Below are positions 32,031-46,040 of a stretch of 64,000 nucleotides of DNA, in pieces (position 1 is the first letter of the stretch; each line of letters starts with the position of its first letter). The DNA comes from an uncultured Bacteroidota bacterium. GTDB lineage: Bacteria > Bacteroidota > Bacteroidia > B-17B0 > Aurantibacillaceae. The stretch is taken from positions 1 through 64,000 of the forward strand of contig CALMVZ010000034.1 in assembly GCA_937873155.1 (NCBI GenBank), in the 5' to 3' direction. The position numbers were made by a program, and so were the translations under genes. The notes below the pieces were generated by a model. The model was not told the DNA's origin. It did no database searches and saw only the letters and a program-made list of their open reading frames with translations.

Positions 32031-32221
32031 TTTTCCGCAAAATCGGTAAAGTAAAAAGTCCTGAATATTCGGGAATTATCCACTTAAAACACCCGGAGAT
32101 AAAGTATTTAAGCAGGGTCGATCCGGCGAGGTAAGACATTATTACATTCGAGTTTAGGATAATGTTTATAAGGCAGGAGATTAATATAAGTAATAGAAAT
32201 ATTTACTATTTTTACTCTATT

Positions 32222-32782
32222 ATGACACTATTTGTGAGAAATATGGTCTGCAGTAGATGTAGAATGGTTGTAAGGGGTGAACTTGAGAAAGCAGGAATAG
32301 AGTTCCTTTCCGTAGACCTTGGAGAGATCCAACTGACCAAAGAACCAACCGATAAACAAATTGAACAACTTGATGAAGGATTAAAACAGCATGGTTTTGA
32401 ATTGATCGATGATAAGAAAAGCAGAATGATCGAAAAGATCAAAACAGCGATTGTAAAGCTTATTCATCATAACAATGATACGATAAAAACAAACCTTTCA
32501 GATTACATAGCCGATAAACTCCACTACGATTATACTTATTTGAGTAACCTGTTCTCAGAGGTAGAAGGTACAACAATAGAAAAGTATTTTATCGCTCAGC
32601 GAATTGAAAAAGTGAAAGAGTTACTTGTGTACGATGAACTTTCCCTTTCAGAGATCTCTGATCGTTTGGGTTATAGCAGCGTGGCCTATTTATCAAGCCA
32701 GTTCAAAAAAACTACCGGCCTCACTCCTTCTTTTTACAAATCGTTAAAAGAACATAAAAGGAAGAATATTGAGGAACTGTAA
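32222..32782 (+). CDS. AraC-family regulator with N-terminal HMA-like CxxC domain
   Basis: The ATG at 32222 gives 186 residues (an upstream in-frame ATG at 32162 adds 20 unconserved residues). Residues 1-~65 resemble an HMA fold with Cys10 and Cys13 (NMVCSRC), then GFELIDDKKSRMIEKIK. Residues ~90-180 are the double helix-turn-helix of AraC (LHYDYTYLSNLFSEVEG, LSLSEISDRLGYSSVAYLSSQ, FKKTTGLTPSFYK). The layout suggests a metal- or thiol-sensing activator. Its last codon overlaps the first of six identical-format boxes that I propose as its binding sites. Confidence 0.85.
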   Translation: MTLFVRNMVCSRCRMVVRGELEKAGIEFLSVDLGEIQLTKEPTDKQIEQLDEGLKQHGFELIDDKKSRMIEKIKTAIVKLIHHNNDTIKTNLSDYIADKLHYDYTYLSNLFSEVEGTTIEKYFIAQRIEKVKELLVYDELSLSEISDRLGYSSVAYLSSQFKKTTGLTPSFYKSLKEHKRKNIEEL

Positions 32783-32842
32783 ATATCATAAATCCTTCCA
32801 AAGATTACATAAACAGGGAGCATCAAGATCATAGTATTTTTG
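32779..32842 (+). promoter_or_regulatory. Regulon box A and -7 element (HMA protein promoter)
   Basis: The 36-bp box is at 32779-32814, with half-sites CATAAA at 32787 and 32808, 21 bp apart. TATTTTTG at 32835-32842 begins 20 bp after the box. The box overlaps the stop codon of the AraC-type gene. Confidence 0.8.
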
Positions 32843-32858
32843 TATAAAAACTAATACT

Positions 32859-33404
32859 ATGAAAACAAGAAAATCAATTTTAACACTGTTCATTGCAATG
32901 CTAATGAGCAGCTCTGCTTTTGCAAATTTCGTTTCTGCAAAAGTTAAAGTAACCGGAGTGACATGTAGCATGTGCTCAAATTCAGTGCATAAGGCCTTAT
33001 CGTCGCTATCTTTTATAGATAAGATCAACGTTGACCTCGAAAACGCAGAGTTCACACTAACTTTTAAATCGAATGAAAAAGTGGTTATGGATGAGATCAG
33101 GAATAAGATCGAAGGCGCCGGTTTTTCAGTTGGACAATTGATCGCTGATTTTAAATTCAATGACCTGCACGTTACAAAAGATCTTCATTACGATTTTGAG
33201 GGAAATACCTACCATTTTGTGAATGTGGACAATAAACACCTGAACAGTATTGCATCTATCCGTTTTGTGGACAAAGGCCTTACCTCTGCAAAAGAACACA
33301 AAAAATATGTTGGACTTACCACATTTAAATGCATCAAAACCGGAACTTCTCAGGATTGTTGTCACATGGCCTCTAAAAAGAGAATCTATCACGTAACAAT
33401 TTAG
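32859..33404 (+). CDS. Exported heavy-metal-associated (HMA) domain protein
   Basis: This 181-residue protein has a signal peptide (residues 1-22, ending SAFA) and then an HMA domain with the metal site GVTCSMC (Cys36, Cys39) and the HMA helix SNSVHKALSSL. A ~75-residue C-terminal part with DCCHM and several His may add ligands. It is expected in the periplasm as a copper- or mercury-type chaperone or sink. It is the first gene controlled by box A, 17 bp after the -7 element. Confidence 0.82.
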   Translation: MKTRKSILTLFIAMLMSSSAFANFVSAKVKVTGVTCSMCSNSVHKALSSLSFIDKINVDLENAEFTLTFKSNEKVVMDEIRNKIEGAGFSVGQLIADFKFNDLHVTKDLHYDFEGNTYHFVNVDNKHLNSIASIRFVDKGLTSAKEHKKYVGLTTFKCIKTGTSQDCCHMASKKRIYHVTI

Positions 33405-33408
33405 TGAA

Positions 33409-34332
33409 ATGAAAAAGTTTTTTCTTATTGCGTCAATTGTCCTTTCGGGGGCAACAGCAATAGCTCAGGAATTATATCCGAATTCCGAGCCTGCGAGTAT
33501 AGTTCCAAAACATTCACTTGGTATTCGTTTGATGAATGAAGCCTATACAACGCCATCGAAGTTCAAAAGCTGGCATGGCGCTATGTTCATGTACGGCATA
33601 AGTTCAAAGTTCATGATGAATGCAATGGTAACAACGTCAAATCACCATTACAAAACACTTCCTGAAAGTTATATTCAGAAAGACGCGAACCAAGTTGAAT
33701 ATGTAGCATCAACATCATCACCGGACAATTATTTGTTTGAATCAGTGAACCTTGGTTTCAGATATAGGGTTGTGAATAAAGATGGTGATCACCGTCATTT
33801 TAGAATGGCTTTATATGGTAACGGCGTATATGCTGAACAACCACATGACGAAGCTGAGGTTTCGTTAATGGGCGATAATAAAGGAGTTGGCGGCGGATTG
33901 ATCTCTACTGTGTTAGTAAACAAATTAGCGGTGTCATTAACCGCAGGCATTATCAAACCTTTTTCTTACAGAGAAAGCGCATCGAAGATCTCTTTAAATT
34001 ATGGTAACTCCTATAACTATAGTTTATCATTCGGATATTTAGTTTATCCTTTCAAGTATAAAAGCTATGATCAAACGAACATAAATCTGTATGCTGAATT
34101 CCTGGGTAAGTCATACGATGCCCTGAATGTTACTAAAGACCAGAATACTGTTATAGCATCGGATAATGCTTACAAGAAAGGAAACTACATAGAATTTCGC
34201 CCTGCCATCCAATTCATTGTGAAGTCAAATTTAAGAATTGATGTTAGTACCGCTATTCCAATGGTAAACCGTTCTTACATCCGCAAATACCCTCTTTACC
34301 TCTTGAATCTGCAATACTATTTTTTTCTCTAG
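33409..34332 (+). CDS. Outer-membrane beta-barrel protein of the metal cluster
   Basis: This 307-residue protein has a signal peptide (ending AIAQ), many amphipathic strands and a C-terminal aromatic strand (LLNLQYYFFL) as in outer-membrane barrels. Met- and His-rich stretches (GAMFMYGISSKFMMNAM, SNHHYK, GDHRHF) could bind soft metals. It lies 4 bp after the HMA gene and is cotranscribed from box A. Its specific family is not recognised. Confidence 0.68.
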   Translation: MKKFFLIASIVLSGATAIAQELYPNSEPASIVPKHSLGIRLMNEAYTTPSKFKSWHGAMFMYGISSKFMMNAMVTTSNHHYKTLPESYIQKDANQVEYVASTSSPDNYLFESVNLGFRYRVVNKDGDHRHFRMALYGNGVYAEQPHDEAEVSLMGDNKGVGGGLISTVLVNKLAVSLTAGIIKPFSYRESASKISLNYGNSYNYSLSFGYLVYPFKYKSYDQTNINLYAEFLGKSYDALNVTKDQNTVIASDNAYKKGNYIEFRPAIQFIVKSNLRIDVSTAIPMVNRSYIRKYPLYLLNLQYYFFL

Positions 34333-34351
34333 CGATCAATTAGTCGCTTCT

Positions 34352-34415
34352 GTAAATCTTATAAATCCTTCCAAAGATTACATAAACTGCCCGCCCTGTG
34401 CGGGCAGTACCTTTG
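34352..34415 (+). promoter_or_regulatory. Regulon box B and -7 element (HMA-MauE promoter)
   Basis: The box is at 34352-34387; half-sites TATAAA at 34360 and CATAAA at 34381, 21 bp apart. TACCTTTG is at 34408-34415. A short GC hairpin (GCCCG/CGGGC, 34389-34406) lies between the box and the -7 element. Confidence 0.8.
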
Positions 34416-34435
34416 CTGTATAAATCATACACAAA

Positions 34436-35236
34436 ATGACACACACGTATAAAATAACCGGAATGACATGTAACTCATGTCAGGCAAAAGTTCAAAAGGC
34501 CCTTGGAAATGTAAAAGGGGTAACGAACGCAAAAGTAGATTGGCACAAAGGCGAAGCTGATATTACCATGAACAATCACATAAGCACCTCGGTGCTGCAG
34601 GAGGCACTAAAAGCCTATCCAAAATATAAGCTTACTGAAAAGACAGACGACACTTCGGCAGTTTTAAAAGAAGAAAAAGATCCCTGGCTAAAAAAGCACA
34701 TCACCGAAAGCATGCAAGTTAACACGCCTGTATTTGAAGAAGAAGAAGAGAAGAGCTGGTTTCAAACTTATAAACCGGTACTATTGATCTTCGCCTATAT
34801 CACAGGTATTACTCTGTTCATTCAATATGGAATGGGAGAATTCATGTGGATGGAATGGATGAACCATTTTATGGCAGGATTTTTCATCACTTTCTCTTTC
34901 TTCAAACTTTTAAACCTTTCCGGATTTGCAGATAGTTACATGAGCTATGATATAATTGCAAGACGATGGAGAGGCTGGGGTTATGTTTATGCATTTGTTG
35001 AACTTGGTCTTGGTGTTGCATATATATTAGAATTCGATCCGATCATCACGAATGTTGTAACGTTAGTAGTAATGGGATTAAGTATTATTGGTGTATTACA
35101 GAGCGTATTGAACAAGCGTAAAATAAAATGTGCCTGTTTAGGAGATGTTTTCAATTTACCAATGAGTACTATCACCATTATTGAAGATGGATTAATGATA
35201 GGAATGAGTGTAATTATGTTGTTGAACCTGATCTGA
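34436..35236 (+). CDS. HMA domain fused to MauE/DoxX-like membrane protein
   Basis: This 266-residue protein begins with a cytoplasmic HMA domain (residues 1-~67, GMTCNSC with Cys12 and Cys15), then a linker and four TM segments (~115-133, 140-158, 183-200, 205-265). The membrane part resembles MauE-type redox proteins and holds a CAC motif (KIKCACLGDVFNLP). The fusion suggests delivery of metal or electrons across the inner membrane. It is led by box B and followed 10 bp later by a His/Met-rich outer-membrane protein. Confidence 0.82.
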   Translation: MTHTYKITGMTCNSCQAKVQKALGNVKGVTNAKVDWHKGEADITMNNHISTSVLQEALKAYPKYKLTEKTDDTSAVLKEEKDPWLKKHITESMQVNTPVFEEEEEKSWFQTYKPVLLIFAYITGITLFIQYGMGEFMWMEWMNHFMAGFFITFSFFKLLNLSGFADSYMSYDIIARRWRGWGYVYAFVELGLGVAYILEFDPIITNVVTLVVMGLSIIGVLQSVLNKRKIKCACLGDVFNLPMSTITIIEDGLMIGMSVIMLLNLI

Positions 35237-35246
35237 AATTAAAAAC

Positions 35247-36590
35247 ATGAAAAAATTAATTGTTTTAATATTAGCGGTTGGTTTTGGAACTCTGAAGGCG
35301 CAGAATGACCATTACCAACATCATCAAACGGATACTGTAAAGACCGAAGCTGCAAAAAAGGACACCGTTGATCATGCACATCATGATATGTCGAATATGA
35401 GCCATGCCTTTTCATTGAATTTACCAATGAGCAGAAATGGTTCCGGGACAGGATGGCTTCCGGATTCAACTCCAATGTACGGCTACATGATACATGGAAA
35501 AAAATGGATGTACATGATTCATGGAAATATCTTTGCAAGGTATACAGGGCAGGATATTTTTAATGCAGGAACACGCGGAGATGAAAAATTCGATGTCGTA
35601 AGTTGGTTCATGGGAATGGGACAACGCCGCGTAGGTAAAAGGGGATTGTTCCGTTTTAGCGGCATGATATCGGCCGACAACGCGTTTGGCGGTGACGGTT
35701 ATCCTTTACTCTTCCAGACAGGAGAAAGCTGGAAAGGAAAACCCCTTGTTGACCGTCAGCATCCACATGACCTGTTTTCTGAATTATCAATCGCATATAC
35801 ACACATGATAAACAAGGATGTTGATCTCTTTGTTTATGCAGGATATCCGGGAGAGCCGGCATTGGGTTCAGTGGCTTTCATGCACAGAGTATCTTCATTG
35901 TACGGACCAGATGCACCATTAAGTCACCATTGGAATGACGGAACACATATAACATTCGGAGTTGTTACAGGCGGAGTGCGTTTAGGAAAATTTAAAATAG
36001 ATGCTTCTTCATTTACAGGAAGGGAACCGGATGAGAACCGTTTGGATTTTGACGAACCGAAATTTGATTCGTATAGCGGAAGGATCTCGTACAACCCAAA
36101 TGCATATTGGTCGTTCCAGGCATCACAAGGATTTATTAAGAGTCCGGAATCAGTTAGACCGAATGAAGATGTTTATCGTACCACAGTTTCAGCAGTTTAT
36201 AGTAAGCCTTTACGAAGAAATGGTTTCGTAAACGTCACGGGTTTGTGGGGGATGAATAAGAGTCATGGCAATGAGCATGCCCTGTTGCTGGAAGCGGCGT
36301 ATGTTAAGAATATATTCTCTATGTACGGCAGATATGAAATGGTGCAGAAATCAATTCACGAATTAGATCTGGATGAAAAAGCTTACGAACACGATGCGTT
36401 ATTTAATATTAATGTTTTGACTATTGGAATGAGTTTAGATGTAATAGATTCCAAAGCAATGCGGCTTGCGTTTGGAGGACAAGGGACAGTCTACGCCCCG
36501 GATGAAAGATTAGAATCTATCTACGGGAAGAATCCGGTATCAGCACAAGTATTCATTCGACTCTATCCTCCACGAATGAAAGTAAACTAA
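35247..36590 (+). CDS. His/Met-rich outer-membrane protein of the metal cluster
   Basis: This 447-residue protein has a signal peptide (residues 1-18) and then a His-rich segment (NDHYQHHQTD, DHAHHDMSNMSHAF) like a copper-binding tail. Conserved-looking motifs follow: PMSRNGSGTGWLPDSTPMYG and DRQHPHDLFSELSIAYTH. Strand alternation continues to the aromatic end. I have seen the DRQHPHDL motif in hypothetical proteins near metal genes, but know no function. It is cotranscribed with the HMA-MauE gene from box B, and a terminator follows. Confidence 0.72.
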   Translation: MKKLIVLILAVGFGTLKAQNDHYQHHQTDTVKTEAAKKDTVDHAHHDMSNMSHAFSLNLPMSRNGSGTGWLPDSTPMYGYMIHGKKWMYMIHGNIFARYTGQDIFNAGTRGDEKFDVVSWFMGMGQRRVGKRGLFRFSGMISADNAFGGDGYPLLFQTGESWKGKPLVDRQHPHDLFSELSIAYTHMINKDVDLFVYAGYPGEPALGSVAFMHRVSSLYGPDAPLSHHWNDGTHITFGVVTGGVRLGKFKIDASSFTGREPDENRLDFDEPKFDSYSGRISYNPNAYWSFQASQGFIKSPESVRPNEDVYRTTVSAVYSKPLRRNGFVNVTGLWGMNKSHGNEHALLLEAAYVKNIFSMYGRYEMVQKSIHELDLDEKAYEHDALFNINVLTIGMSLDVIDSKAMRLAFGGQGTVYAPDERLESIYGKNPVSAQVFIRLYPPRMKVN

Positions 36591-36608
36591 ATATAATGTA
36601 TAGAAAAG

Positions 36609-36635
36609 AGAGCCCCACGCGGGGCTCTTTTTTTA
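36609..36635 (+). terminator. Rho-independent terminator
   Basis: AGAGCCCC and GGGGCTCT form a perfect 8-bp stem around ACGC, followed by a T run. Confidence 0.85.
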
Positions 36636-36653
36636 TATGCAATTGTTCACTCC

Positions 36654-36717
36654 GTAAAAATCATAAATCCTTCCCAAAATTCCATAAACAATAATGCTTG
36701 TTACCGAGGTAGTTTTG
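36654..36717 (+). promoter_or_regulatory. Regulon box C and -7 element (MFS transporter promoter)
   Basis: The box is at 36654-36689; half-sites CATAAA at 36662 and 36683. TAGTTTTG is at 36710-36717. It lies 20 bp after the preceding terminator's T run. Confidence 0.8.
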
Positions 36718-36736
36718 AAGAAAAAACAAAAACCCT

Positions 36737-38119
36737 ATGGAAACAACAATCAATCATGCTATCCCGTACGCCAAGCGATGGGCGGCACTTGCGGTGATCT
36801 GTACCGCGCAATTCATGGTAATTATGGATACATCTATTATAGGTGTAGCATTACCTGCAATTCAAAAAGATCTTGGATATTCATCATCAGGCCTTCAATG
36901 GATATTCAATGCGTACGTAATTTTATTAGGAGGTCTTTTACTGTTAGGAGGAAAATTATCCGATATGTTTGGTCCACGTAAAATATTTATGTGGGGCTTC
37001 GGAATCTTAACAGCTGCTTCTTTATTAGCAGGTTTAGCCTGGGACGAAACATCAATGAACATTGGACGAGCTTTGCAAGGTGCAGGTTCTGCATTGATCG
37101 CTCCAGCTGCGCTTACTTTATTAATGACCATGTTCACAGATCCAAAAGAATTAGGAAAAGCTTTTGGTTTTTGGGGGGCATCAGCGGCAGCCGGTGGATC
37201 TGCGGGAGTATTCTTAGGTGGATTGCTTACCGAAACACTATCATGGCCTTGGGTATTCTATATTAATATCCCATTAGGCATTCTTGTTTTTTTATTAAGT
37301 AAACCATTATTAGTACAAGGAATGAAACAAAAAAGCAAACTCGATCTGCTAAGCGCGGTCATCGCAACCTTATCTTTAGTATTATTAGTTTACGGTATTG
37401 TATCACCGGAACAAACTGTAATTGCAAAAGCTATTACTCTACTTGTTTCAGTTTTATTATTTGTAATCTTTATTGTTCGTCAGAAGAGATCAAAACATCC
37501 GTTACTTCCGCTTTCAATTTTCAAAGCAAAAAATCTAAGTTCAGGAAATATTGTAATGATGTTAATGGCCGGTGCGTGGATCCCGTTGTGGTTCTTCTTG
37601 AATCTTTACTTGCAACAAGTATTGCAATTATCAGCCTTCAATAGCGGGCTCGCATTATTGCCAATGACAATTGTGATCATGATATTAATGGTAGGCTTTA
37701 CAGGAAAGATCGTTGCGAAATTTGGATTTAAGGTGCCTTTAATTGCAGGACTTATTTCATTAGCAGGATCATTGCTTTTATTTTCACAAGCGGATGCTAA
37801 TGGTTCGTTTTTAGTTGATGTGTTACCTGCTTCTATTCTAGGGGCTATAGGAATGTCATTAGCATATATTCCCGGAACAATTGCATCGATGTCTGGTGCT
37901 AAGCCGGAAGAAACAGGATTGGCTTCAGGTATCTCAAATACGAGCTACCAAGTTGGTTCAGCGATTGGATTAGCAATAGTAGTTGCAATTAGTTCTTTGA
38001 TCTTAACAGCACAACCAAGTGTTGAGGTGATCACAGAGAGTATAAGAGTTGCGTTTATTTCTGCGGGAGTTATATGTTTAGCTGCTTTAGTTGTTGCTAT
38101 ACGTTATATAAAAATGTAA
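36737..38119 (+). CDS. MFS drug transporter, DHA2 (EmrB/QacA-like)
   Basis: This 460-residue protein has about 14 hydrophobic segments. Family signatures are MDTSIIGVALPAIQKDL in the first helix, GGKLSDMFGPRKIFMWG (motif A) and GRALQGAGSALIAPAALTLL. DHA2 pumps export drugs, dyes or metal-chelate compounds using the proton gradient. It is a single-gene unit between two terminators and is led by box C, so it is predicted to respond with the metal genes. Confidence 0.9.
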   Translation: METTINHAIPYAKRWAALAVICTAQFMVIMDTSIIGVALPAIQKDLGYSSSGLQWIFNAYVILLGGLLLLGGKLSDMFGPRKIFMWGFGILTAASLLAGLAWDETSMNIGRALQGAGSALIAPAALTLLMTMFTDPKELGKAFGFWGASAAAGGSAGVFLGGLLTETLSWPWVFYINIPLGILVFLLSKPLLVQGMKQKSKLDLLSAVIATLSLVLLVYGIVSPEQTVIAKAITLLVSVLLFVIFIVRQKRSKHPLLPLSIFKAKNLSSGNIVMMLMAGAWIPLWFFLNLYLQQVLQLSAFNSGLALLPMTIVIMILMVGFTGKIVAKFGFKVPLIAGLISLAGSLLLFSQADANGSFLVDVLPASILGAIGMSLAYIPGTIASMSGAKPEETGLASGISNTSYQVGSAIGLAIVVAISSLILTAQPSVEVITESIRVAFISAGVICLAALVVAIRYIKM

Positions 38120-38143
38120 ATAAATATTACTTCAGGAAAAATT

Positions 38144-38173
38144 AAGAGCTTCATTTATGGAGCTCTTTTTTTG
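38144..38173 (+). terminator. Rho-independent terminator
   Basis: AAGAGCT and AGCTCTT form the stem, followed by seven T, after the MFS gene. Confidence 0.75.
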
Positions 38174-38179
38174 TGGACA

Positions 38180-38243
38180 GTAAAAATCATAAATCGTTTC
38201 AAAAATTACATAAACAGCAAACAAGGTTGCAGGCATACCTTTG
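38180..38243 (+). promoter_or_regulatory. Regulon box D and -7 element (metallothionein-like promoter)
   Basis: The box is at 38180-38215; half-sites CATAAA at 38188 and 38209. TACCTTTG is at 38236-38243. Confidence 0.8.
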
Positions 38244-38280
38244 TATAGTTAAATAAATGTTTAATCAAAAAATAAATGTT

Positions 38281-38400
38281 ATGGAAACAAACAAAGTAAA
38301 AAGTAACTGCAGTAATGTAAACTGCACTTGCGACAAATGTACGTGCGGAAGCAATTGCACAGATTCAAATTGTGCTTGCGGTTGCAACTGCTGTAAGTAA
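38281..38400 (+). CDS. Metallothionein-like 39-residue Cys-rich peptide
   Basis: ATG at 38281 to TAA at 38398-38400 encodes 39 residues with 11 cysteines in CxC, CxxC and CC patterns (NCTCDKCTCGSNC, NCACGCNCCK) and a polar METNKVKSN start. There is no signal peptide and no aromatic residue. It is likely a cytoplasmic metal-thiolate peptide that buffers soft metals. It has its own box D promoter and its own terminator, which strongly supports a real gene despite the size. Compare the 44-residue peptide at 28479-28613. Confidence 0.82.
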   Translation: METNKVKSNCSNVNCTCDKCTCGSNCTDSNCACGCNCCK

Positions 38401-38403
38401 TAA

Positions 38404-38426
38404 AGGGGCCGAGAGGCCCTTTTTTA
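38404..38426 (+). terminator. Rho-independent terminator of the metallothionein-like gene
   Basis: AGGGGCC and AGGCCCT pair with one bulge around a short loop, followed by a T run. Confidence 0.7.
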
Positions 38427-38432
38427 TTCGCA

Positions 38433-38496
38433 GTAAAAATCACAAATCGTTCCCAAAATTCCGTAAACAGTAACAGTGATACCCCGCATACCTTTG
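38433..38496 (+). promoter_or_regulatory. Regulon box E and -7 element (MarC-family promoter)
   Basis: The box is at 38433-38468; half-sites CACAAA at 38441 and CGTAAA at 38462, the most divergent pair but with spacing kept. TACCTTTG is at 38489-38496. It rules out an upstream GTG start at 38476 for the next gene. Confidence 0.78.
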
Positions 38497-38514
38497 ACAA
38501 AAAAATTAAAAGCC

Positions 38515-39081
38515 ATGAACAACATTATTACAGTAAGCCTGGTGCTATTTTCGGTGATCGATTCAGTAGGAACGTTGCCGTACATTATTCAATTAAAGAA
38601 ACAAGAAGGCGAATTAAAGAAATTAAAGATCACTTTGATCGCAGGCGGGCTCATGCTCAGCTTTTTTCTTTTTGGGGAAGGTCTTTTAAAAATGATCGGA
38701 TTAGACGTAGCTTCATTTGCTTTAGCTGGTGGTGCGTTAATGTTCTTGTCAGCCGCAGAAATGATCCTGGGAATTAGTTTTTCAAAGGAGGAAAAGGGCG
38801 TAGCATCTACCAGGTCTATTGTCCCACTTGTTTTTCCGATGTTGGCCGGAGCAGGAACTTTAACAACGTTAATCTCACTACGCGCTGTGTACAATGAATA
38901 TGTTATACTGATTGGAATAGCGATCAACGTGGCTATACTATATCTTGTATTAAATTCAGCAGGATGGATAGAAAAGAAAATGGGAAGCGGTAGCCTTGGT
39001 TTGGTAAAGAAAGTATTTGGAATTATTGTTTTAGCGATGGCCTTTAAGATCTTTAAGACCGGATTTGATACTACTTTTTAA
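38515..39081 (+). CDS. MarC/NAAT-family membrane protein
   Basis: The ATG at 38515, 19 bp after the -7 element, gives 188 residues. There are six hydrophobic segments and the MarC-family signature SIVPLVFPMLAGAGTLTT (residues ~103-120), with SVIDSVGTLP near the N-terminus. The family has no settled substrate, although some archaeal members were reported as amino-acid transporters. Placement under box E links it to the metal or thiol response here. Confidence 0.88.
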   Translation: MNNIITVSLVLFSVIDSVGTLPYIIQLKKQEGELKKLKITLIAGGLMLSFFLFGEGLLKMIGLDVASFALAGGALMFLSAAEMILGISFSKEEKGVASTRSIVPLVFPMLAGAGTLTTLISLRAVYNEYVILIGIAINVAILYLVLNSAGWIEKKMGSGSLGLVKKVFGIIVLAMAFKIFKTGFDTTF

Positions 39082-39149
39082 ATTTTAAACAAATGATAAT
39101 CAATAAATTAGTAACTAAACGCGAAAAATTAACATTTATAATTGTGATT

Positions 39150-39168
39150 TACTGAACAGTGTTCAGTA
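39150..39168. promoter_or_regulatory. TetR operator 1
   Basis: TACTGAAC-AGT-GTTCAGTA is an inverted repeat with perfect 8-bp arms, 28 bp before the tetR ATG; TAATTTTA overlaps its right edge as a possible -7 element. Confidence 0.72.
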
Positions 39169-39196
39169 ATTTTACATCGTTAATATAAATTGCACT

Positions 39197-39814
39197 ATGG
39201 GCATCACAGAAAGAAAAGAAAGAGAAAAAGAAGAAATGCGTAAGAAGATCATCGACGTAGCATTCGATATGTTTCTTGAAGAAGGATTTGAAGGTACATC
39301 GTTACGTGAGATCGCGAAAAGAATTGAATACAGCCCGGCTACTATCTATTTATATTATAAAGATAAAGAAGCTTTGTTCTTTGATATACAAAAGAAATGT
39401 TTTTTGAAATTAATAAGTTCATATAAGGATGCAGGCGTACCAAGTATTAAGAATCCATTTGAACGTTTACGTGCAATGGGTCACGCCTATTTGAAATTCA
39501 ATATGAAGAATCCTCAATGCTTTAATTTAATGTTTCTTCATAATTCGCCAATGAGTGAGTTCAAAAAAACAGACCGGATGGAAAACCATGGTAATGGAGT
39601 AGGCTTTTTAAAGGATACAGTCGTAGAATGTATAGAAAAGAAAATGATCAAAGGAGACCAACTTGAATTACGTATGGAGATCTGGGGAATCACTCATGGC
39701 CTATGTACTTTGTACGTAAACAAAAGTTATGAAGCTGCCGGAATTACCAAAACCCAAGCGGAAGAATTAATGAAAAATGCATGGGAGAATTTTTTAGCAA
39801 GGATAAAAACATAA
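39197..39814 (+). CDS. TetR-family repressor
   Basis: This 205-residue protein has an N-terminal HTH (FEGTSLREIAKRIEYSPATIYLYYKDKE region, recognition helix SPATIYLYY at ~44-52) and a C-terminal ligand domain. It carries an acidic/basic start (ERKEREKEEMRKKI). Matching palindromes flank the gene (39150 and 39830), so it probably represses itself and the following esterase/OMP genes. The inducer is unknown. Confidence 0.88.
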   Translation: MGITERKEREKEEMRKKIIDVAFDMFLEEGFEGTSLREIAKRIEYSPATIYLYYKDKEALFFDIQKKCFLKLISSYKDAGVPSIKNPFERLRAMGHAYLKFNMKNPQCFNLMFLHNSPMSEFKKTDRMENHGNGVGFLKDTVVECIEKKMIKGDQLELRMEIWGITHGLCTLYVNKSYEAAGITKTQAEELMKNAWENFLARIKT

Positions 39815-39829
39815 AAAAATTTGCCCTTT

Positions 39830-39848
39830 TACTAAACACTGTTCAGTA
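39830..39848. promoter_or_regulatory. TetR operator 2
   Basis: TACTAAAC-ACT-GTTCAGTA repeats operator 1 with one change in the left arm. It lies 46 bp before the esterase ATG. Confidence 0.68.
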
Positions 39849-39894
39849 TATAACCAATGTTAATTAAAATATAAAACAACAATAAAATAGACAA

Positions 39895-40689
39895 ATGAAA
39901 AGAATAATGACAATCGCACTAATACTACTGGTAGCAGTATCGTGCAAAAAGAAAATCAAAGCGCCCGAGAACACCCGGGAATTCCAAATCGAATCAAGTT
40001 ACGCATCGGCAACCTACGATATTAAAATAGCATTGCCTGAGAATTATGATCCGCAAAACAAAAAGTATGCAACTATCTACCTGTTGGATGGTAAAGACAA
40101 CTTTAAATTCGTTGCGCACCATTGCAAAGAAATAAGCGAAAAAAAATCAACTGAAAATGTAATGGTGGTAAGTATCGGCTATGGCCGCGACCGCGCACTT
40201 GATTACACACCAACCAAAGTAAAAAGCGGTTCAGGCGGTGCACCGGAATTCATGCAATTCTTAATGAACGAGCTTAAACCTCTACTGGAATCTGAATACG
40301 CAGCAGATACAACCAGGAGGAGCCGGGTGATTTTGGGTCATTCATTCGGCGGCTTGTTTGGTGCATTCGCCTTTACTAAGCACAATAACTTTTTTGGAAA
40401 TTATCTTATGCTTAGTCCTTCTCTTTGGTGGGACAATGAAGTGCTCCTTCAATACGAACAGGACGACCGTTCAATAATAAGCAACAAAGATCAATTAGTA
40501 TTTCTTGGTATAGGAAAACTGGAAAACAGCGGTAGAATGCAAGCACCATTTGAAGCTTTCTACCAGCGAATGAGTAAATATTATTCGTCAATGAAGCTTG
40601 AAAAAAACTCCGTAGCAGGAATGGAGCACATGGGATCAAAAAATCCAAACATCATCAAAGCATTAGAATTTTATTTTCAAAACCGTTAA
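39895..40689 (+). CDS. Alpha/beta-hydrolase lipoprotein (esterase D/siderophore esterase-like)
   Basis: This 264-residue protein has a lipoprotein signal (LLVAVSC, Cys18). The hydrolase core shows YLLDGKDNF, the nucleophile elbow GHSFGG and a late His in GMEHMGS; the acid residue is not obvious. This matches COG2819-type hydrolases, which include S-formylglutathione and enterobactin esterases. It is outer- or inner-membrane anchored facing the periplasm, and is controlled by TetR operator 2. Confidence 0.8.
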   Translation: MKRIMTIALILLVAVSCKKKIKAPENTREFQIESSYASATYDIKIALPENYDPQNKKYATIYLLDGKDNFKFVAHHCKEISEKKSTENVMVVSIGYGRDRALDYTPTKVKSGSGGAPEFMQFLMNELKPLLESEYAADTTRRSRVILGHSFGGLFGAFAFTKHNNFFGNYLMLSPSLWWDNEVLLQYEQDDRSIISNKDQLVFLGIGKLENSGRMQAPFEAFYQRMSKYYSSMKLEKNSVAGMEHMGSKNPNIIKALEFYFQNR

Positions 40690-40700
40690 AACCAGTAATC

Positions 40701-41306
40701 ATGAAAAAACAATATTTATATACAGTAACAATTATGTTTATGATAATTTACACTTATGCGCAAAATGATTCATTGAAATCATCAGCTACATACAAAAACA
40801 AATTCACCATTGAACCGGGAATTGGAATATCACCGATGCCGATAGTAGATATGAGTCTAACCAATATTGTACAATGGGGAATTGCAAAACGATTTTCAGT
40901 GATATCATATACTTCTTTAAAAGAGAATAATCTTTTTAAAAGGAATTTCAACTATATCAAAGGAACGAACAATCATACCATATCTCAAAGTTTCGGAGTT
41001 GGTACTACGTTCTGCTCTAAACATGCAGATCATACATTCTCTATGCTTGCAGGTATAAAGTATACTACATACACTGAAACGATGAGCAATCCACAATTTG
41101 AAAAAGTTCAGGTAAGTATCAGTGAATGGAATCCGGACGCGGGCCTGATGTACAATCTCAAACTTGGAAGAAAAAGATTCTTCTTCAGTTACAGGATGTA
41201 CATTCCACTCGCACCTTATCCGATGCTCTCGCGGGATTTTTCATCAGTAGATGGAAACATAGCAAACATTTCACTTGAAGCCGGATTAGGGATTCGTTTG
41301 AACTAA
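40701..41306 (+). CDS. Outer-membrane barrel-like hypothetical protein
   Basis: This 201-residue protein has a signal peptide (ending TYAQ) and alternating strands (TIEPGIGISPMPIVDMSL, FSMLAGIKYTTYTETM, ISLEAGLGIRLN), typical of an eight-stranded barrel. It lies 11 bp after the esterase gene and is probably cotranscribed. In the following gap (41307-41410) I see only a GAAAGC-GACT-GCTTTC hairpin at 41335-41350. Confidence 0.58.
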   Translation: MKKQYLYTVTIMFMIIYTYAQNDSLKSSATYKNKFTIEPGIGISPMPIVDMSLTNIVQWGIAKRFSVISYTSLKENNLFKRNFNYIKGTNNHTISQSFGVGTTFCSKHADHTFSMLAGIKYTTYTETMSNPQFEKVQVSISEWNPDAGLMYNLKLGRKRFFFSYRMYIPLAPYPMLSRDFSSVDGNIANISLEAGLGIRLN

Positions 41307-41410
41307 AAACCAAAAAATATATGAGCAATTTATTGAAAGCGACTGCTTTCTTGCGATAGCCTTGACCAAAAATTAATTAAACCAATAATAAACAATTAAA
41401 AACTAAAAAA

Positions 41411-42382
41411 ATGAAAACAACAAAAACAATGAAAGCAGCAGTTTACACTCAGTATGGATCTCCTGAAGTTCTCCAAACTAAAGAAGTTACTAAACCGGAA
41501 CCAAAAGCAAATGAAATTCTTTTAAAAATTAAAGCCACAGCGGTTAATTCAGGCGAAGTGCGATTAAGAAAAGCGGACCCGTTCGCAGTTAGATTCTTGT
41601 TCGGGTTAACGAAACCTAAACTTAATATTCTCGGGGCAGTTTTTTCAGGGGAAGTTGAAAGTATCGGCAAGGATGTTACACGTTTCAAGGTAGGAGACCA
41701 GGTCTTCGGCCATACAGATATGAAATTTGGTGCGTATGCGGAATACATCTGCGTTGCGGAAGACGGATCGTTAGCAATGAAACCCACTAATATTTCGCAC
41801 AATGAAGCTGCAACTATTCCTTTTGGTGGGACTACCGCATTGCATTTTATTAAGAAAGCAGATATTAAGCCGGGTCAAAAAGTTCTTATAGTTGGTGCAT
41901 CAGGAGCTGTTGGCAGTGCTGCTGTCCAATTGGCGAAATCGTATGGCGCGATAGTTACAGGGGTATGCAGTACATCTAATGTTGCGCTTGTAAGATCGAT
42001 CGGTGCAGACAAAGTTATTGATTACAAAAAGGAAGATTTTACACAAAATGGTGAGATCTATGATGTGATCTATGATGCAGTTAAAACGATCTCAATTTTC
42101 CGCAGCGCAAAATCGCTAAAGAAAAATGGAATTATGATTTTAGGCGCTGCAATGATTTCGGAAATGATCCAAGGCTTATTTACCTCAATAACAAGTGGTA
42201 GAAAGGTTTTAATGGGGGTTATTAGTCACAAAGCAGAAGATATTAATTTTCTAAAAACGCTTATTGAAAAAGGAAAATACAAACCTGTAATTGACAGAAC
42301 TTATTCCTTAGAGCAGATTGCAGAAGCGCATGCTTATGTTGAAAAGGGACACAAAAAAGGAAACGTAGCTATTAACATTTAA
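41411..42382 (+). CDS. Zinc-free MDR-type NAD(P)H quinone reductase/alcohol dehydrogenase
   Basis: This 323-residue protein belongs to the medium-chain dehydrogenase/reductase superfamily. An N-terminal GroES-like domain (MKAAVYTQYGSPEVL, KIKATAVNSGEVRLR, GVFSGEVESIG-like segment) precedes a Rossmann domain with IVGASGAVGSAAVQLAK. The zinc-ligand Cys and His pattern of classical ADHs is absent, as in quinone oxidoreductases. It reduces quinones or enones with NADPH. An in-frame ATG at residue 7 is an alternative start. Confidence 0.85.
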   Translation: MKTTKTMKAAVYTQYGSPEVLQTKEVTKPEPKANEILLKIKATAVNSGEVRLRKADPFAVRFLFGLTKPKLNILGAVFSGEVESIGKDVTRFKVGDQVFGHTDMKFGAYAEYICVAEDGSLAMKPTNISHNEAATIPFGGTTALHFIKKADIKPGQKVLIVGASGAVGSAAVQLAKSYGAIVTGVCSTSNVALVRSIGADKVIDYKKEDFTQNGEIYDVIYDAVKTISIFRSAKSLKKNGIMILGAAMISEMIQGLFTSITSGRKVLMGVISHKAEDINFLKTLIEKGKYKPVIDRTYSLEQIAEAHAYVEKGHKKGNVAINI

Positions 42383-42393
42383 AAATTACAGAT

Positions 42394-42789
42394 ATGACTG
42401 GTTTTATTTTAGGTCTTAGTACCACCATGGCAATAATCATTTTCGCTGAGGTATTCAGGAAAATAGATTTGAAGTTCTTTGCTTCGTTGAACTTAGCAGT
42501 TATACCCTTTATTTATATAGGGTTTTCAATCGATCCGCATTCGCTTGCCCTTACAATCCCCAGTGCATCCATGTTCTTATTTTTTGCCTATTGGGGTTAT
42601 AAAGGTAGCCACATGTTCACAGTAGTGGGACTAGTTCTACATGGACTATGGGATGTATTATTTCCTCATGTAAGCTCTGTTGCTCCACACGGCTATGATA
42701 TCTTTTGTATCACAATTGATGTTTTGCTTGCTCTGTATTTTTACCTGAAACTGAACCCAAAAATTAATCTTAAAACGAAAAACAGATGA
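42394..42789 (+). CDS. DUF6010-like membrane protein
   Basis: This 131-residue protein has four hydrophobic segments. The motifs AYWGYKGSHMF and LHGLWDVLFPH resemble DUF6010. Function is unknown. It lies 11 bp after the reductase and overlaps the protease-like gene by 4 bp (ATGA), so the three form one operon. Confidence 0.65.
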   Translation: MTGFILGLSTTMAIIIFAEVFRKIDLKFFASLNLAVIPFIYIGFSIDPHSLALTIPSASMFLFFAYWGYKGSHMFTVVGLVLHGLWDVLFPHVSSVAPHGYDIFCITIDVLLALYFYLKLNPKINLKTKNR

Positions 42790-43670
42790 AAACAACAACC
42801 AAAAATAAATTCCTTAATTATTCTTTAGTAAGAATAGTTTTAGGCTTAGTTCTTTCTTTCGCCTCATTTATTATTGCTCAGCAATTAGTGGGTAAGCTAC
42901 TTGATCTTACATCAATTGATAACAGCTTCAGAAATTTTATTAAAGGTATAATTGCGTCAGTTTTTGTTATCACCGGCTACATCCTTTTTTATAGCAAGGT
43001 TGAAAAAAGAGATATAACCGAACTTTCAAAAAAAGGGATTGTAAAGAATATAGTCTTTGGAATATTGATCGGTGCAGCAATACAAATACTAACATTATTT
43101 GTTATATCCATTCCTGGCCAACTACAAATCGTTTCTGTTAATCCTCTTTCTTTTGTAGTAACTCCATTAGCGGTGGCATTGTCTGTTGCCATTTTTGAGG
43201 AGATATTGCTTCGCGGAATCATATTTCGTATAGTGGAAGAAAAGCTGGGAAGTATTACAGCATTGTTGCTTTCAGCTTTGATCTTTGGAGGAGTTCACTC
43301 AATGAATCCCGGTAGTTCGATTATTTCATCGCTATGTACAGGCATTGTTGGTTTTATATTTGGAGCCGTGTATGTTTACAGTAGAAGCTTATGGTTGCCA
43401 ATAGCTATTCATTTTTCCTGGAACTTTGTTCAATCAGGTATTTTTGGTGCTGTCACTTCCGGTAATGAGAAAACAAGTAGCCTGTTAACCACAGAAATTT
43501 CAGGACCCGAAATAATTACCGGTGGGGCATTTGGCCCGGAAGGAACAATACAAGCGGTAATATTATGGTCGGTCGTTGCTATAATACTATCGATTCTGAT
43601 TGTTAAGCAAAACAAGTTAATTCCCTTATCATTTAAACCCGGTAAAAATCATAAATCAATACCAAAATAA
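42786..43670 (+). CDS. CPBP-family intramembrane metalloprotease
   Basis: This 294-residue protein has about eight hydrophobic segments. The CPBP (Abi/Rce1) motifs are EEILLRGIIFR (EExxxR), FGGVHS and HFSWNF, which form the putative intramembrane metal site. Family members cleave prenylated or signal-type membrane substrates in some systems. The last ~10 codons are overlapped by regulon box F, so its 3' end doubles as a promoter region for the TonB receptor. Confidence 0.87.
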   Translation: MKTTTKNKFLNYSLVRIVLGLVLSFASFIIAQQLVGKLLDLTSIDNSFRNFIKGIIASVFVITGYILFYSKVEKRDITELSKKGIVKNIVFGILIGAAIQILTLFVISIPGQLQIVSVNPLSFVVTPLAVALSVAIFEEILLRGIIFRIVEEKLGSITALLLSALIFGGVHSMNPGSSIISSLCTGIVGFIFGAVYVYSRSLWLPIAIHFSWNFVQSGIFGAVTSGNEKTSSLLTTEISGPEIITGGAFGPEGTIQAVILWSVVAIILSILIVKQNKLIPLSFKPGKNHKSIPK

Positions 43671-43705
43671 CATAAACAGCAGAGCTTCATAAAGAAGTAG
43701 CTTTG
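43642..43705 (+). promoter_or_regulatory. Regulon box F and -7 element (TonB receptor promoter)
   Basis: The box is at 43642-43677; half-sites CATAAA at 43650 and 43671. TAGCTTTG is at 43698-43705. Most of the box lies within the 3' end of the CPBP protease gene. Confidence 0.8.
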
Positions 43706-43727: not shown

Positions 43728-46040
43728 ATGAAAAATTTAATCGTAATATTAATCGTAGCCCTTAGCTCAATGAAGCTAAGCGCTCAAACTAAATTTACCT
43801 TAACAGGGAACGTAAAAGACAAAACCGGAGAAGCACTGATAGGTTCTTTGGTATTAGTTCAAGAACTAAAAGGCGTTGGTGCCGTAGCCGACATTGAAGG
43901 TAATTACCAAGTAACACTTCCAAATGGTAACTACACTATTAAAGTCACTTCAATTGGATATAAGCCTATTCTAAAAAAAGTGAACCTCAATGGAAATAAA
44001 GTACTTGATGTGATTTTAGAAGATGACACTCAAGTATTAGAGGAAGTAGTTATCACAGTAAAGAAGGAAGAAACAGTATTGGTACAAGCTGGGGTTGAAA
44101 AATTGGACATGGAACAGATCAATAAGATTCCCGTGCTTATGGGAGAAAGAGATGTTCTGAAAACAATACAACTGTTGCCCGGTGTGAAAGGCGCAGGTGA
44201 AGGTAACTCAGGTTTTTATGTAAGAGGCGGAAGTTCAGATCAGAACTTAGTTTTGTTAGATGATGCTCCGGTATACAATGCCACACATTTGTTCGGAATG
44301 TTCTCGACCTTCAATTCAGATGTGATAGACGGTGTTACTTTATATAAAGGTAACATGCCTTCAAACTACGGCGGAAGATTATCATCAGTGCTTGATATAA
44401 CAACTTTAGAAGGAAATAAAGAAAAATATCATACATCAGGAAGCATTGGTCTGATCTCTTCGAAATTAAATGTTGAAGGACCAATTGTAAAAGAAAAAGG
44501 ATCATTCATGTTAAGTGGCAGAAGAACTTACGCAGATCTGTTCTTAAAATTAGCACCGGACAAAGACTTAAGATCAAAACAACTTTATTTCTACGATCTC
44601 AATGTGAAATCGAGTTACATGATCAACGATAAGAACAGAATATTCTTTACAGGATATTATGGTCGTGACAAATTGAGATTTGATAAGAATTTTGGAATGG
44701 ATTGGGGTAATATGACAGGTACGTTGAGATGGAATAAGATCTATAGTCCAAAACTTCTTTCAAACACATCTTTCGTTTACTCAGATTACGATTATAAAAT
44801 TGAGATAAAAGTGAATGACGCGACAGTTGACCTTACATCAAAAATTAAAAGTCATACACTAAAGCATGAATACAAATATTTGTTCAACGACAATAGTAAA
44901 CTTGTATTTGGTTTATCAGCAGCAAATCATGAGTTCTTACCAGGCCAGGTAAATACAACAGATGAAAACATCATTAAGCCCGTTAAACTGCAGAAAAAAT
45001 ACGCGCTTGAGAATGCAGTGTATGTAAATCATGAGTGGAAGCCTTTAAAAAATTTAAATTTAGTATATGGGGCGCGCGTTTCAAGCTTCAGCATAAAAGG
45101 AAAGGGAGTATTTAATATATATGACCAACAAGGCAGTGTGATTTCCACCAAAACACTTCACCCTGAACAATTAGATAAAACTTACTTCAACTTTGAACCA
45201 AGATTATCTGCAAGTTTTGCGATGAACAACAGCAATTCATTAAAAGCATCTTATACAAGAAATGCACAAAATATTCACTTGCTTTCAGGATCAACATCCG
45301 AAAACCCAACGGATATCTGGTTACCGAGCAGTTACAATATTAAACCTGAGATATCGAACCAGTACGCTTTAGGTTATATGAAAACCTTGAAAAATGAAAT
45401 GTATGAGTTAAGCGCAGAAACATATTACAAGGATCTTTTTAACCAGATCGATTACAGGAATGGTGCCAGTGTATTAGCAAATGAAAGAGTGGAAGCTGAA
45501 TTGTTATACGGAATAGGCCGTGCTTATGGATTAGAATTAAGCTTAAAAAAGAAAACAGGAAAACTCACCGGTTGGATAGCCTATACTTTAGCAAAAACAG
45601 AACGTAAGATAGATGGCATCAACAATAACCAATGGTATAATGCAAAGCAGGATCGTACTCACGACATTTCAATAGTTGGAATATATGATTTCAATAAAAA
45701 ATGGTCGCTGTCAGCAACCTGGGTTTACAACACCGGCAACGCAGTAACATTTCCAACCGGTAAATACCGTATAGACGGAAAAGTAAATTATGTCTATTCT
45801 GAAAGAAACGCATCAAGAATGCCCTCTTACCATAGAATGGATGTTGGTGTAACCTGGAACAATAAAAAGACAGAAAAATTTGAATCGAGTTGGAATCTTT
45901 CCATCTACAACCTTTACGCTCGTGAGAATGCCTACCAAATTTCATTCGAACAAGATCCGAATGACGCAACAAGAACACGTGCAATGCAAACGACATTATT
46001 CAGAATCATCCCATCCATTAATTACAATTTTAAATTTTAA
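43728..46040 (+). CDS. TonB-dependent receptor with carboxypeptidase-like domain
   Basis: This 770-residue protein has a signal peptide (ending LSAQ), a carboxypeptidase-regulatory-like beta-sandwich (residues ~22-105, FTLTGNVKDKTGEALIGSL), a plug (IQLLPGVKGAGEGNSGFYVRG region, DDAPVYNATHLFG) and a ~500-residue barrel ending RIIPSINYNFKF. It imports a substrate with TonB energy. No TonB box is certain. It pairs with the DUF4249 lipoprotein 3 bp downstream and is led by box F, which suggests a metal-linked ligand. Confidence 0.92.
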   Translation: MKNLIVILIVALSSMKLSAQTKFTLTGNVKDKTGEALIGSLVLVQELKGVGAVADIEGNYQVTLPNGNYTIKVTSIGYKPILKKVNLNGNKVLDVILEDDTQVLEEVVITVKKEETVLVQAGVEKLDMEQINKIPVLMGERDVLKTIQLLPGVKGAGEGNSGFYVRGGSSDQNLVLLDDAPVYNATHLFGMFSTFNSDVIDGVTLYKGNMPSNYGGRLSSVLDITTLEGNKEKYHTSGSIGLISSKLNVEGPIVKEKGSFMLSGRRTYADLFLKLAPDKDLRSKQLYFYDLNVKSSYMINDKNRIFFTGYYGRDKLRFDKNFGMDWGNMTGTLRWNKIYSPKLLSNTSFVYSDYDYKIEIKVNDATVDLTSKIKSHTLKHEYKYLFNDNSKLVFGLSAANHEFLPGQVNTTDENIIKPVKLQKKYALENAVYVNHEWKPLKNLNLVYGARVSSFSIKGKGVFNIYDQQGSVISTKTLHPEQLDKTYFNFEPRLSASFAMNNSNSLKASYTRNAQNIHLLSGSTSENPTDIWLPSSYNIKPEISNQYALGYMKTLKNEMYELSAETYYKDLFNQIDYRNGASVLANERVEAELLYGIGRAYGLELSLKKKTGKLTGWIAYTLAKTERKIDGINNNQWYNAKQDRTHDISIVGIYDFNKKWSLSATWVYNTGNAVTFPTGKYRIDGKVNYVYSERNASRMPSYHRMDVGVTWNNKKTEKFESSWNLSIYNLYARENAYQISFEQDPNDATRTRAMQTTLFRIIPSINYNFKF

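Follow-up and report, generated by a model that had tools for sequence, protein, structure and literature searches.

A predicted 36 bp direct-repeat operator and its HMA-AraC regulator in Bacteroidota

AraC of Escherichia coli binds araI1-I2, a pair of direct half-sites spaced by about 21 bp beside a promoter, through a double helix-turn-helix (HTH) domain. MarA and SoxS act as monomers on single sites. The copper-responsive genes copA, copZ and their relatives are controlled by CueR, CsoR, CopY and CusRS. Here, we describe a locus from an uncultured Bacteroidota bacterium (GenBank assembly GCA_937873155.1, contig CALMVZ010000034.1, positions 1 to 64,000, referred to below as the window) in which the gene for an AraC-type regulator with an HMA-like N-terminal domain is followed by six similar 36 bp boxes, each in front of a promoter. 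The locus resembles araI1-I2 in its double-HTH domain and in its two direct half-sites, the regulator has the DNA-binding fold of MarA, SoxS and Rob (1bl0, 7w5w and 1d5y in a fold search), and it shares with the HMA domains of CopZ, Atx1 and CopA (6ff2, 2xmv and 1p6t) a beta-alpha-beta-beta-alpha-beta fold and a CxxC motif. We consider it likely, with good confidence, that the six boxes are operators of the adjacent HMA-AraC protein, a class II activator that responds to a thiophilic metal, Cu(I)/Ag(I) being the probable signal.

Predicted operator boxes and promoter geometry

The six boxes start at 32779, 34352, 36654, 38180, 38433 and 43642 and align without gaps over 36 bp, as a first-pass annotation of this DNA had proposed. 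Any two of them are identical at 27-34 of 36 bases, compared with 3-11 of 20 in the 20 bp gaps that follow them and 6-15 of 36 in the 36 bp upstream. The half-sites lie at box offsets 8 and 29 (0-based) and are spaced by exactly 21 bp in 6/6 boxes; the pairs read CATAAA/CATAAA in four boxes, TATAAA/CATAAA in one and CACAAA/CGTAAA in one. A perfect TAnnTTTG (-7) element starts 20 bp past the box end in all six, and there are 37 occurrences of this element on the + strand of the window. Both the half-site spacing and the constant distance to the -7 element had been predicted in the first-pass annotation. It had also placed the end of the regulator gene where box 1 begins; the adjacency was retained and the boundary refined, as box 1 overlaps the last coding base (G 32779) and the stop codon (TAA 32780-32782). 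With up to three mismatches allowed, the box pattern gave six matches in the window and none in 100 dinucleotide shuffles. The same search of the entire genome sequence of this organism (4.85 Mb) returned only these six boxes, with 0 matches for a backwards-pattern control, so that the boxes are not scattered over random genome positions. In Flavobacterium psychrophilum the TAnnTTTG element lies at -12 to -5 (PMC9723704); by this yardstick, the boxes of the present genome would span -68 to -33. The regulator gene, the predicted operators and the -7 elements are as follows.

32222-32782, + strand: regulator gene, 186 residues from the likely start; HMA-like domain, linker helix and AraC-type double HTH
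32779-32814, + strand: predicted operator box 1, 32.7 bits; overlaps the regulator stop codon
32835-32842, + strand: -7 element TATTTTTG of promoter 1
34352-34387, + strand: predicted operator box 2, 38.1 bits
34408-34415, + strand: -7 element TACCTTTG of promoter 2
36654-36689, + strand: predicted operator box 3, 39.3 bits
36710-36717, + strand: -7 element TAGTTTTG of promoter 3
38180-38215, + strand: predicted operator box 4, 36.8 bits
38236-38243, + strand: -7 element TACCTTTG of promoter 4
38433-38468, + strand: predicted operator box 5, 36.9 bits
38489-38496, + strand: -7 element TACCTTTG of promoter 5
43642-43677, + strand: predicted operator box 6, 33.2 bits; overlaps the end of an open reading frame (ORF) at 42786-43670
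43698-43705, + strand: -7 element TAGCTTTG of promoter 6

Recurrence and covariation in relatives

Relatives of the regulator were identified by a scan of genome contigs, and from the 575 that were confirmed the best 80 were taken as the family sample; their record titles name Bacteroidota, except for one labelled Ignavibacteria. A matrix built from the six boxes and four relatives was applied to 95 loci (the 80 named loci and 15 around regulators). At a gap of 20 bp, 21 of 1924 TAnnTTTG sites scored above 8, four of the 21 being the seed relatives; the same matrix found three sites at gap 19 and none at the remaining gaps from 10 to 31. Exact CATAA pairs, sought in the 80 loci over a range of spacings, yielded no distinct signal because the half-sites diverge, and a second matrix was therefore grown on these loci without using the -7 element (threshold 20 bits). 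This matrix detected 101 boxes in 72/80 loci and none in the other eight. TTTG follows after 24 bases in 70 boxes and after 23 in 18 (together 88), and at neither distance in 13; the box end thus stands 19-20 bp before the -7 element in 88/101, which together with the offset-21 repeat corresponds to the class II layout of AraC/XylS sites, a direct repeat abutting the -35/-33 region. With training kept strictly separate, held-out loci gave matches in 32/40 and 35/40 at threshold 20, and TTTG stood at 23 or 24 bases in 37/45 and 44/47 of the held-out boxes; shuffled and reversed sequence gave 0. At threshold 15 the second fold gave one shuffled and two reversed matches. An earlier cross-validation at threshold 20, leaky in that its training sites came from the all-loci matrix, had yielded 33/40 and 34/40, with 0 and 1 in shuffles. 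In 52/80 loci a box is found no more than 60 bp from the regulator stop, overlapping the stop codon in 38 and starting directly after it in 12. The GTAAA prefix is not solely a stop-codon effect, because 30/49 boxes away from the regulator stop carry it as well.

Covariation of the half-sites was assessed against controls that deal out half-sites and ignore relatedness. The matching at offset 21 was reached by 0/2000 shuffles for 107 boxes, by 3/2000 with one box per locus (n = 52) and by 0/2000 for the 89 boxes not starting with GTG, and offsets 20 and 22 showed no covariation under the same controls. Association between regulator residues and box bases was analysed in 70 pairs, each regulator being taken with its nearest box scoring above 18 at up to 1000 bp downstream. 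The promoter-proximal half-site starts with base 29, and this base associates with residue 156 in the recognition helix of HTH2: His occurs with T in 32/32 pairs, and Tyr with C in 28, T in 9 and G in 1. At least 9 changes on the tree are required for residue 156 and 11 for base 29. Of 2438 column pairs, this combination takes the top rank in a greedy count of independent pairs, with seven concordant, none discordant and one tied. The mean mutual-information score with the box is 1.61 for the DNA-binding domain and 1.21 for the HMA domain.

Co-occurrence was analysed with a 64-position sequence model of 71 promoters, comprising 61 of 62 eligible rows (L128:1273 was omitted), the six window promoters and four relative promoters; eight GTGAA-type rows and boxes with a 19 bp gap were left out. 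The model was searched against the genomes of 60 relatives, which were assigned by hand to classes by presence of regulator and box. The prediction that the box accompanies the regulator was largely borne out: at E <= 0.001 a match was present in 22/34 genomes with a full-length HMA-AraC protein and in 1/26 without (Fisher p 7e-7), and at E <= 0.01 in 27/34 and 4/26. Removal of the three genomes that supplied training rows left 19/31 against 1/26 (E <= 0.001). The top seven matches in the genome of the window, all of which are in the training alignment, are the six boxes and one box before a copA-like ATPase near a paralogous regulator (L037). Two further matches are candidates only: C25:20637 (25.7 bits), before a cupin-like gene with almost no leader room, and C26:121911, upstream of a lipoprotein-like gene and scoring 19 bits. 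Matches scoring lower are at noise level.

Regulator, predicted targets and window genes

The longest ORF of the regulator runs from 32162 to 32782 (206 residues); its start is probably 32222, because homology begins there. The HMA-like N-domain bears MVCSRC, and across the loci the motif is MVCxRC in 78/80 and MVSxRC in 2/80. The regulator alignment comprised 63 of the 80 loci and the window, the others having been left out to thin similar rows. All 64 members match HTH_18 and HTH_AraC, the C-terminal double HTH of about 100 residues that marks the AraC/XylS family; for the window regulator the Pfam E-values are 1.7e-17 (HTH_18), 4.2e-13 (HTH_AraC) and 0.00048 (HMA). An AlphaFold2 model from the 64 sequences (pLDDT 88.9, pTM 0.80) has a beta-alpha-beta-beta-alpha-beta N-domain, with CxxC after the first strand as in HMA folds, and seven further helices. 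The top Foldseek matches are AraC-type DNA-binding domains; further down are CopZ, Atx1 and GolB (probability 0.96-0.99, E 0.08-0.28), CopZ and Atx1 both reaching a probability of 0.99 but E-values of 0.077 and 0.19. A sequence profile search likewise returned AraC-type domains and then, more weakly, CopA HMA domains (E 2.8e-5).

Besides the window regulator, the same genome encodes two related proteins: the one at C26 is an HMA-AraC paralogue, and the one at C13, the third AraC protein of this group (L038 9356-9997), has no recognizable HMA stretch. Regulator homologues at E <= 1e-20 occur on 30 plasmid records, and a homologue on the Runella slithyformis plasmid pRUNSL02 (L165, typed conjugative) adjoins a multicopper oxidase and an RND permease. 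L037 (G000:C26:150500-170000) is a paralogous copper-type island of the genome that holds the window, with an HMA-AraC regulator and a variant box that precedes a copA-like ATPase; a CusA-like ORF and a multicopper oxidase were recognized there by eye. Adjoining its regulator is an HMA-protein/308-residue pair resembling the 32859 and 33409 genes of the window.

Target genes were counted for 108 boxes (101 matrix boxes, six from the window and one from L037; the two overlapping boxes of L067 count twice). P-type ATPases with DKTGT and CPC follow 45 of these boxes (44 genes), and genes of the same HMA-linked cluster follow 31 more. By hand count, with four more added (two HMA proteins and two metallothionein-like peptides), 80/108 targets are of metal type, in line with the expected concentration of boxes upstream of metal genes. 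None of the 18 GTGAA boxes is of this type, so the share among the others is 80/90, ATPase, HMA, HMBD and metallothionein-like genes being counted; the ten exceptions include the window MFS, MarC and TonB genes. Four of the 44 ATPase genes were examined, and all four products exceeded the TIGR01511 copper cut-off of 397 (577.9-618.8 bits) and, with lower scores, that of TIGR01512.

The GTGAA boxes belong to a sister branch (L111, L112, L114, L121, L129, L131 and, in G051, L152 and L153) in which MVSxRC or MVCIRC regulators accompany a recoded box, GTGAATnATGTAACT...TGTGTAACA, of unchanged geometry. These boxes precede cupin, ferritin-like, lipoprotein-like and small membrane protein genes, in what looks like a stress regulon. 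Two 20 kb stretches of one genome carry 15 such boxes, and one box in L111 lies upstream of the regulator gene itself. A 3.2 kb contig (L155, G027:C681) carries a GTAAA-type and a GTGAA-type box back to back in divergent orientation.

The genes behind the six window promoters are as follows.

32859-33404, + strand: 181-residue HMA-domain protein (Pfam HMA E 4.8e-10); signal-peptide-like start by eye
33409-34332, + strand: 307-residue protein, no Pfam match, outer-membrane-like by eye; presumed in an operon with the 32859 gene
34436-35236, + strand: HMA-MauE fusion membrane protein (Pfam HMA 6.5e-10, MauE 2.1e-11)
35247-36590, + strand: 447-residue protein without a match in Pfam or NCBIfam at E <= 0.01; presumed in an operon with the 34436 gene
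36737-38119, + strand: MFS efflux protein, DHA2/EmrB-like (TIGR00711 227.1 bits, slightly under the cut-off of 230.2)
38281-38400, + strand: 39-residue metallothionein-like protein with 11 Cys; inverted repeat and T run after it (by eye)
38515-39081, + strand: MarC-family membrane protein
43728-46040, + strand: TonB-dependent receptor with a CarboxypepD_reg-like domain (Pfam Plug 3.6e-10, CarbopepD_reg_2 7.9e-16)

The 39-residue ORF, assigned by hand as the target of box 38180, has its own promoter box and a terminator-like repeat, and annotation could easily miss such an ORF. At E <= 0.01 its product matched 0 Pfam and 0 NCBIfam families, metallothionein models included. In G032, where a box is present, and in G011, where a box-like sequence was seen by eye and is unscored, a homologue immediately follows the regulator; another is in L052, where a homologue of the window MFS protein sits behind a box. 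An alternative GTG start of the MarC gene at 38476 is unlikely because this position falls inside the promoter.

Proposed mechanism, alternatives and comparison with known systems

In the proposed mechanism, the usual ligand domain of an AraC protein would be replaced by an HMA (copper-chaperone-like) domain with CxxC, which would hold the signal, a thiophilic metal and most likely Cu(I)/Ag(I). Two protomers would bind head-to-tail on the two direct half-sites, 21 bp or two helical turns apart, and the metal could bridge or re-orient the HMA domains so that both half-sites fill. The promoter-proximal half-site, ending at about -33, would stand in for the missing -33 element. By class II activation, the bound regulator would bring RNA polymerase to a -7 element that is sub-optimal. 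The output would be a local detoxification regulon of an HMA protein, an HMA-MauE protein, an MFS pump, a metallothionein-like peptide, MarC and a TonB receptor. The recurrence of the box at homologues, the co-occurrence, the covariation, the residue-base association and the metal-type targets support the AraC/HMA regulon put forward in the first-pass annotation, and with it a real regulator-operator pair that, as judged from sequence, is widespread in Bacteroidota. Binding, activation, the identity of the metal and dimerization of the regulator are what we infer from this pair.

Several observations weigh against this reading. On the protein side, the Pfam HMA profile (PF00403) scores below its gathering threshold in the window regulator (20.9 against 24.8 bits) and matches 14/64 family members at E <= 0.01, so that metal binding is argued from the fold and the CxxC motif; the HMA-type fold matches are themselves weak (E 0.08-0.28). 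As the window regulon has no copA, its metal is deduced from relatives and from the paralogous locus. Covariation was marginal at offset 23 (44/2000 and 28/2000, with nothing in the 89-box set) and, in the per-locus set, at offset 19 (53/2000). The association of residue 156 with base 29 has an uncorrected p of 0.016, and correction removes its significance; a treekit test restricted to well-supported branches left two pairs and no power, and residue 156 showed no coupling to the equivalent position in the distal half-site, base 8. HMA-domain residues also score high in mutual information with the box, and shared ancestry contributes to this measure, because the DNA-binding domain is barely above the HMA domain. 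The box is present in most regulator-bearing genomes, so its absence there, which would speak against the pairing, applies only in part: 12/34 lack a match at E <= 0.001 and 7/34 at E <= 0.01. Conversely, G027 (720 contigs) has a strong box match and no detected regulator.

An unlikely alternative is that the same protein and operator form a repressor, the apo-protein blocking the -33 region until metal releases it. The box does cover that region, and a repressor there would look similar. The absence of a -33 TTG noted in the first-pass annotation extends to all 71 aligned promoters: TTG at spacers of 17-21 occurs in 0/71, compared with 96/767 background TAnnTTTG sites (12.5%), a count that is not independent of the box since part of this stretch is the conserved box end. 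The first T of the -7 element is kept in 28/71 promoters and absent in 43/71; in the 61 rows chosen for TTTG alone, it is kept in 18 and the following A in 61. Lacking a -33 TTG and often this first T, the promoters look activator-dependent. The box-to--7 distance, fixed at 19-20 bp in 88/101, agrees with what polymerase contact would lead one to expect, and AraC proteins on direct repeats abutting the -35 region are typically class II activators.

Improbable to a similar degree is that the CxxC motif senses thiol/redox or electrophile stress instead of metal. CxxC sites can be redox-active, the sister-branch regulators accompany cupin, ferritin-like and other non-metal genes, and the MFS and MarC targets of the window are not metal-specific. 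Against this stand the metal-type genes behind 80/90 of the non-GTGAA boxes and the fold search, which reaches CopZ, Atx1 and GolB, at weak E-values. That the box is read by an alternative sigma factor or by a different AraC protein is very doubtful: the paralogue at C26 and the HMA-less relative at C13 are available in the genome, but the box adjoins this regulator family in 52/80 loci, the -7 element is of TAnnTTTG type, and both the co-occurrence (p 7e-7) and the residue-base association point to the HMA-AraC family. A dispersed repeat, a miniature inverted-repeat transposable element or a copying artefact, as six alike copies within 11 kb might suggest, was rejected as next to impossible because flanks and gaps are unrelated and the genome has no other copies at up to three mismatches; the geometry is also kept in diverged relatives.

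Beyond activation by the HMA-AraC protein at this locus, we give even chances to a broader proposal. It holds that these proteins are widespread Bacteroidota metalloregulators whose HMA domain on an AraC scaffold senses Cu(I)/Ag(I), perhaps by HMA exchange with CopZ/CopA or by metal-bridged dimerization, and activates through a 21 bp direct-repeat operator often located in the regulator's own stop codon. The sister branch, with lost or altered CxxC, would have been re-used to run a stress regulon of its own, its operator recoded. Bacteroidota are a major phylum of gut, soil and sea, and no copper or silver regulator of such a kind was found described there in the literature searched. No description of an HMA-AraC regulator or, in agreement with the first-pass annotation, of the 36 bp operator was found among titles and abstracts of the open-access literature, subscription papers being mostly outside the search; the accessible parts of PMC9723704 and PMC10434189 do not describe them. 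Sequence alone yielded the regulator family with its operator and promoter geometry, together with a list of targets and a specificity residue that can be tested. If metal binding is true, the family, with its HMA domain on an AraC scaffold, would represent an added structural class of metal sensors and supply Bacteroidota with a metal-inducible promoter.

Compared with AraC at araI1-I2, the regulator carries an HMA-like domain where AraC has its arabinose-binding domain, and its operator serves a Bacteroidota TAnnTTTG promoter and often overlaps the regulator stop codon. It differs from MarA and SoxS in its double site and added sensor-like domain. CueR, CsoR, CopY and CusRS are of different regulator families, none of which is among the families listed for this regulator (25/29 in one listing). 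Unlike the HMA domains of CopZ, Atx1 and CopA, the HMA-like domain here is joined to a DNA-binding domain. The family would appear to be a novel form of AraC protein, one with a chaperone-like domain.

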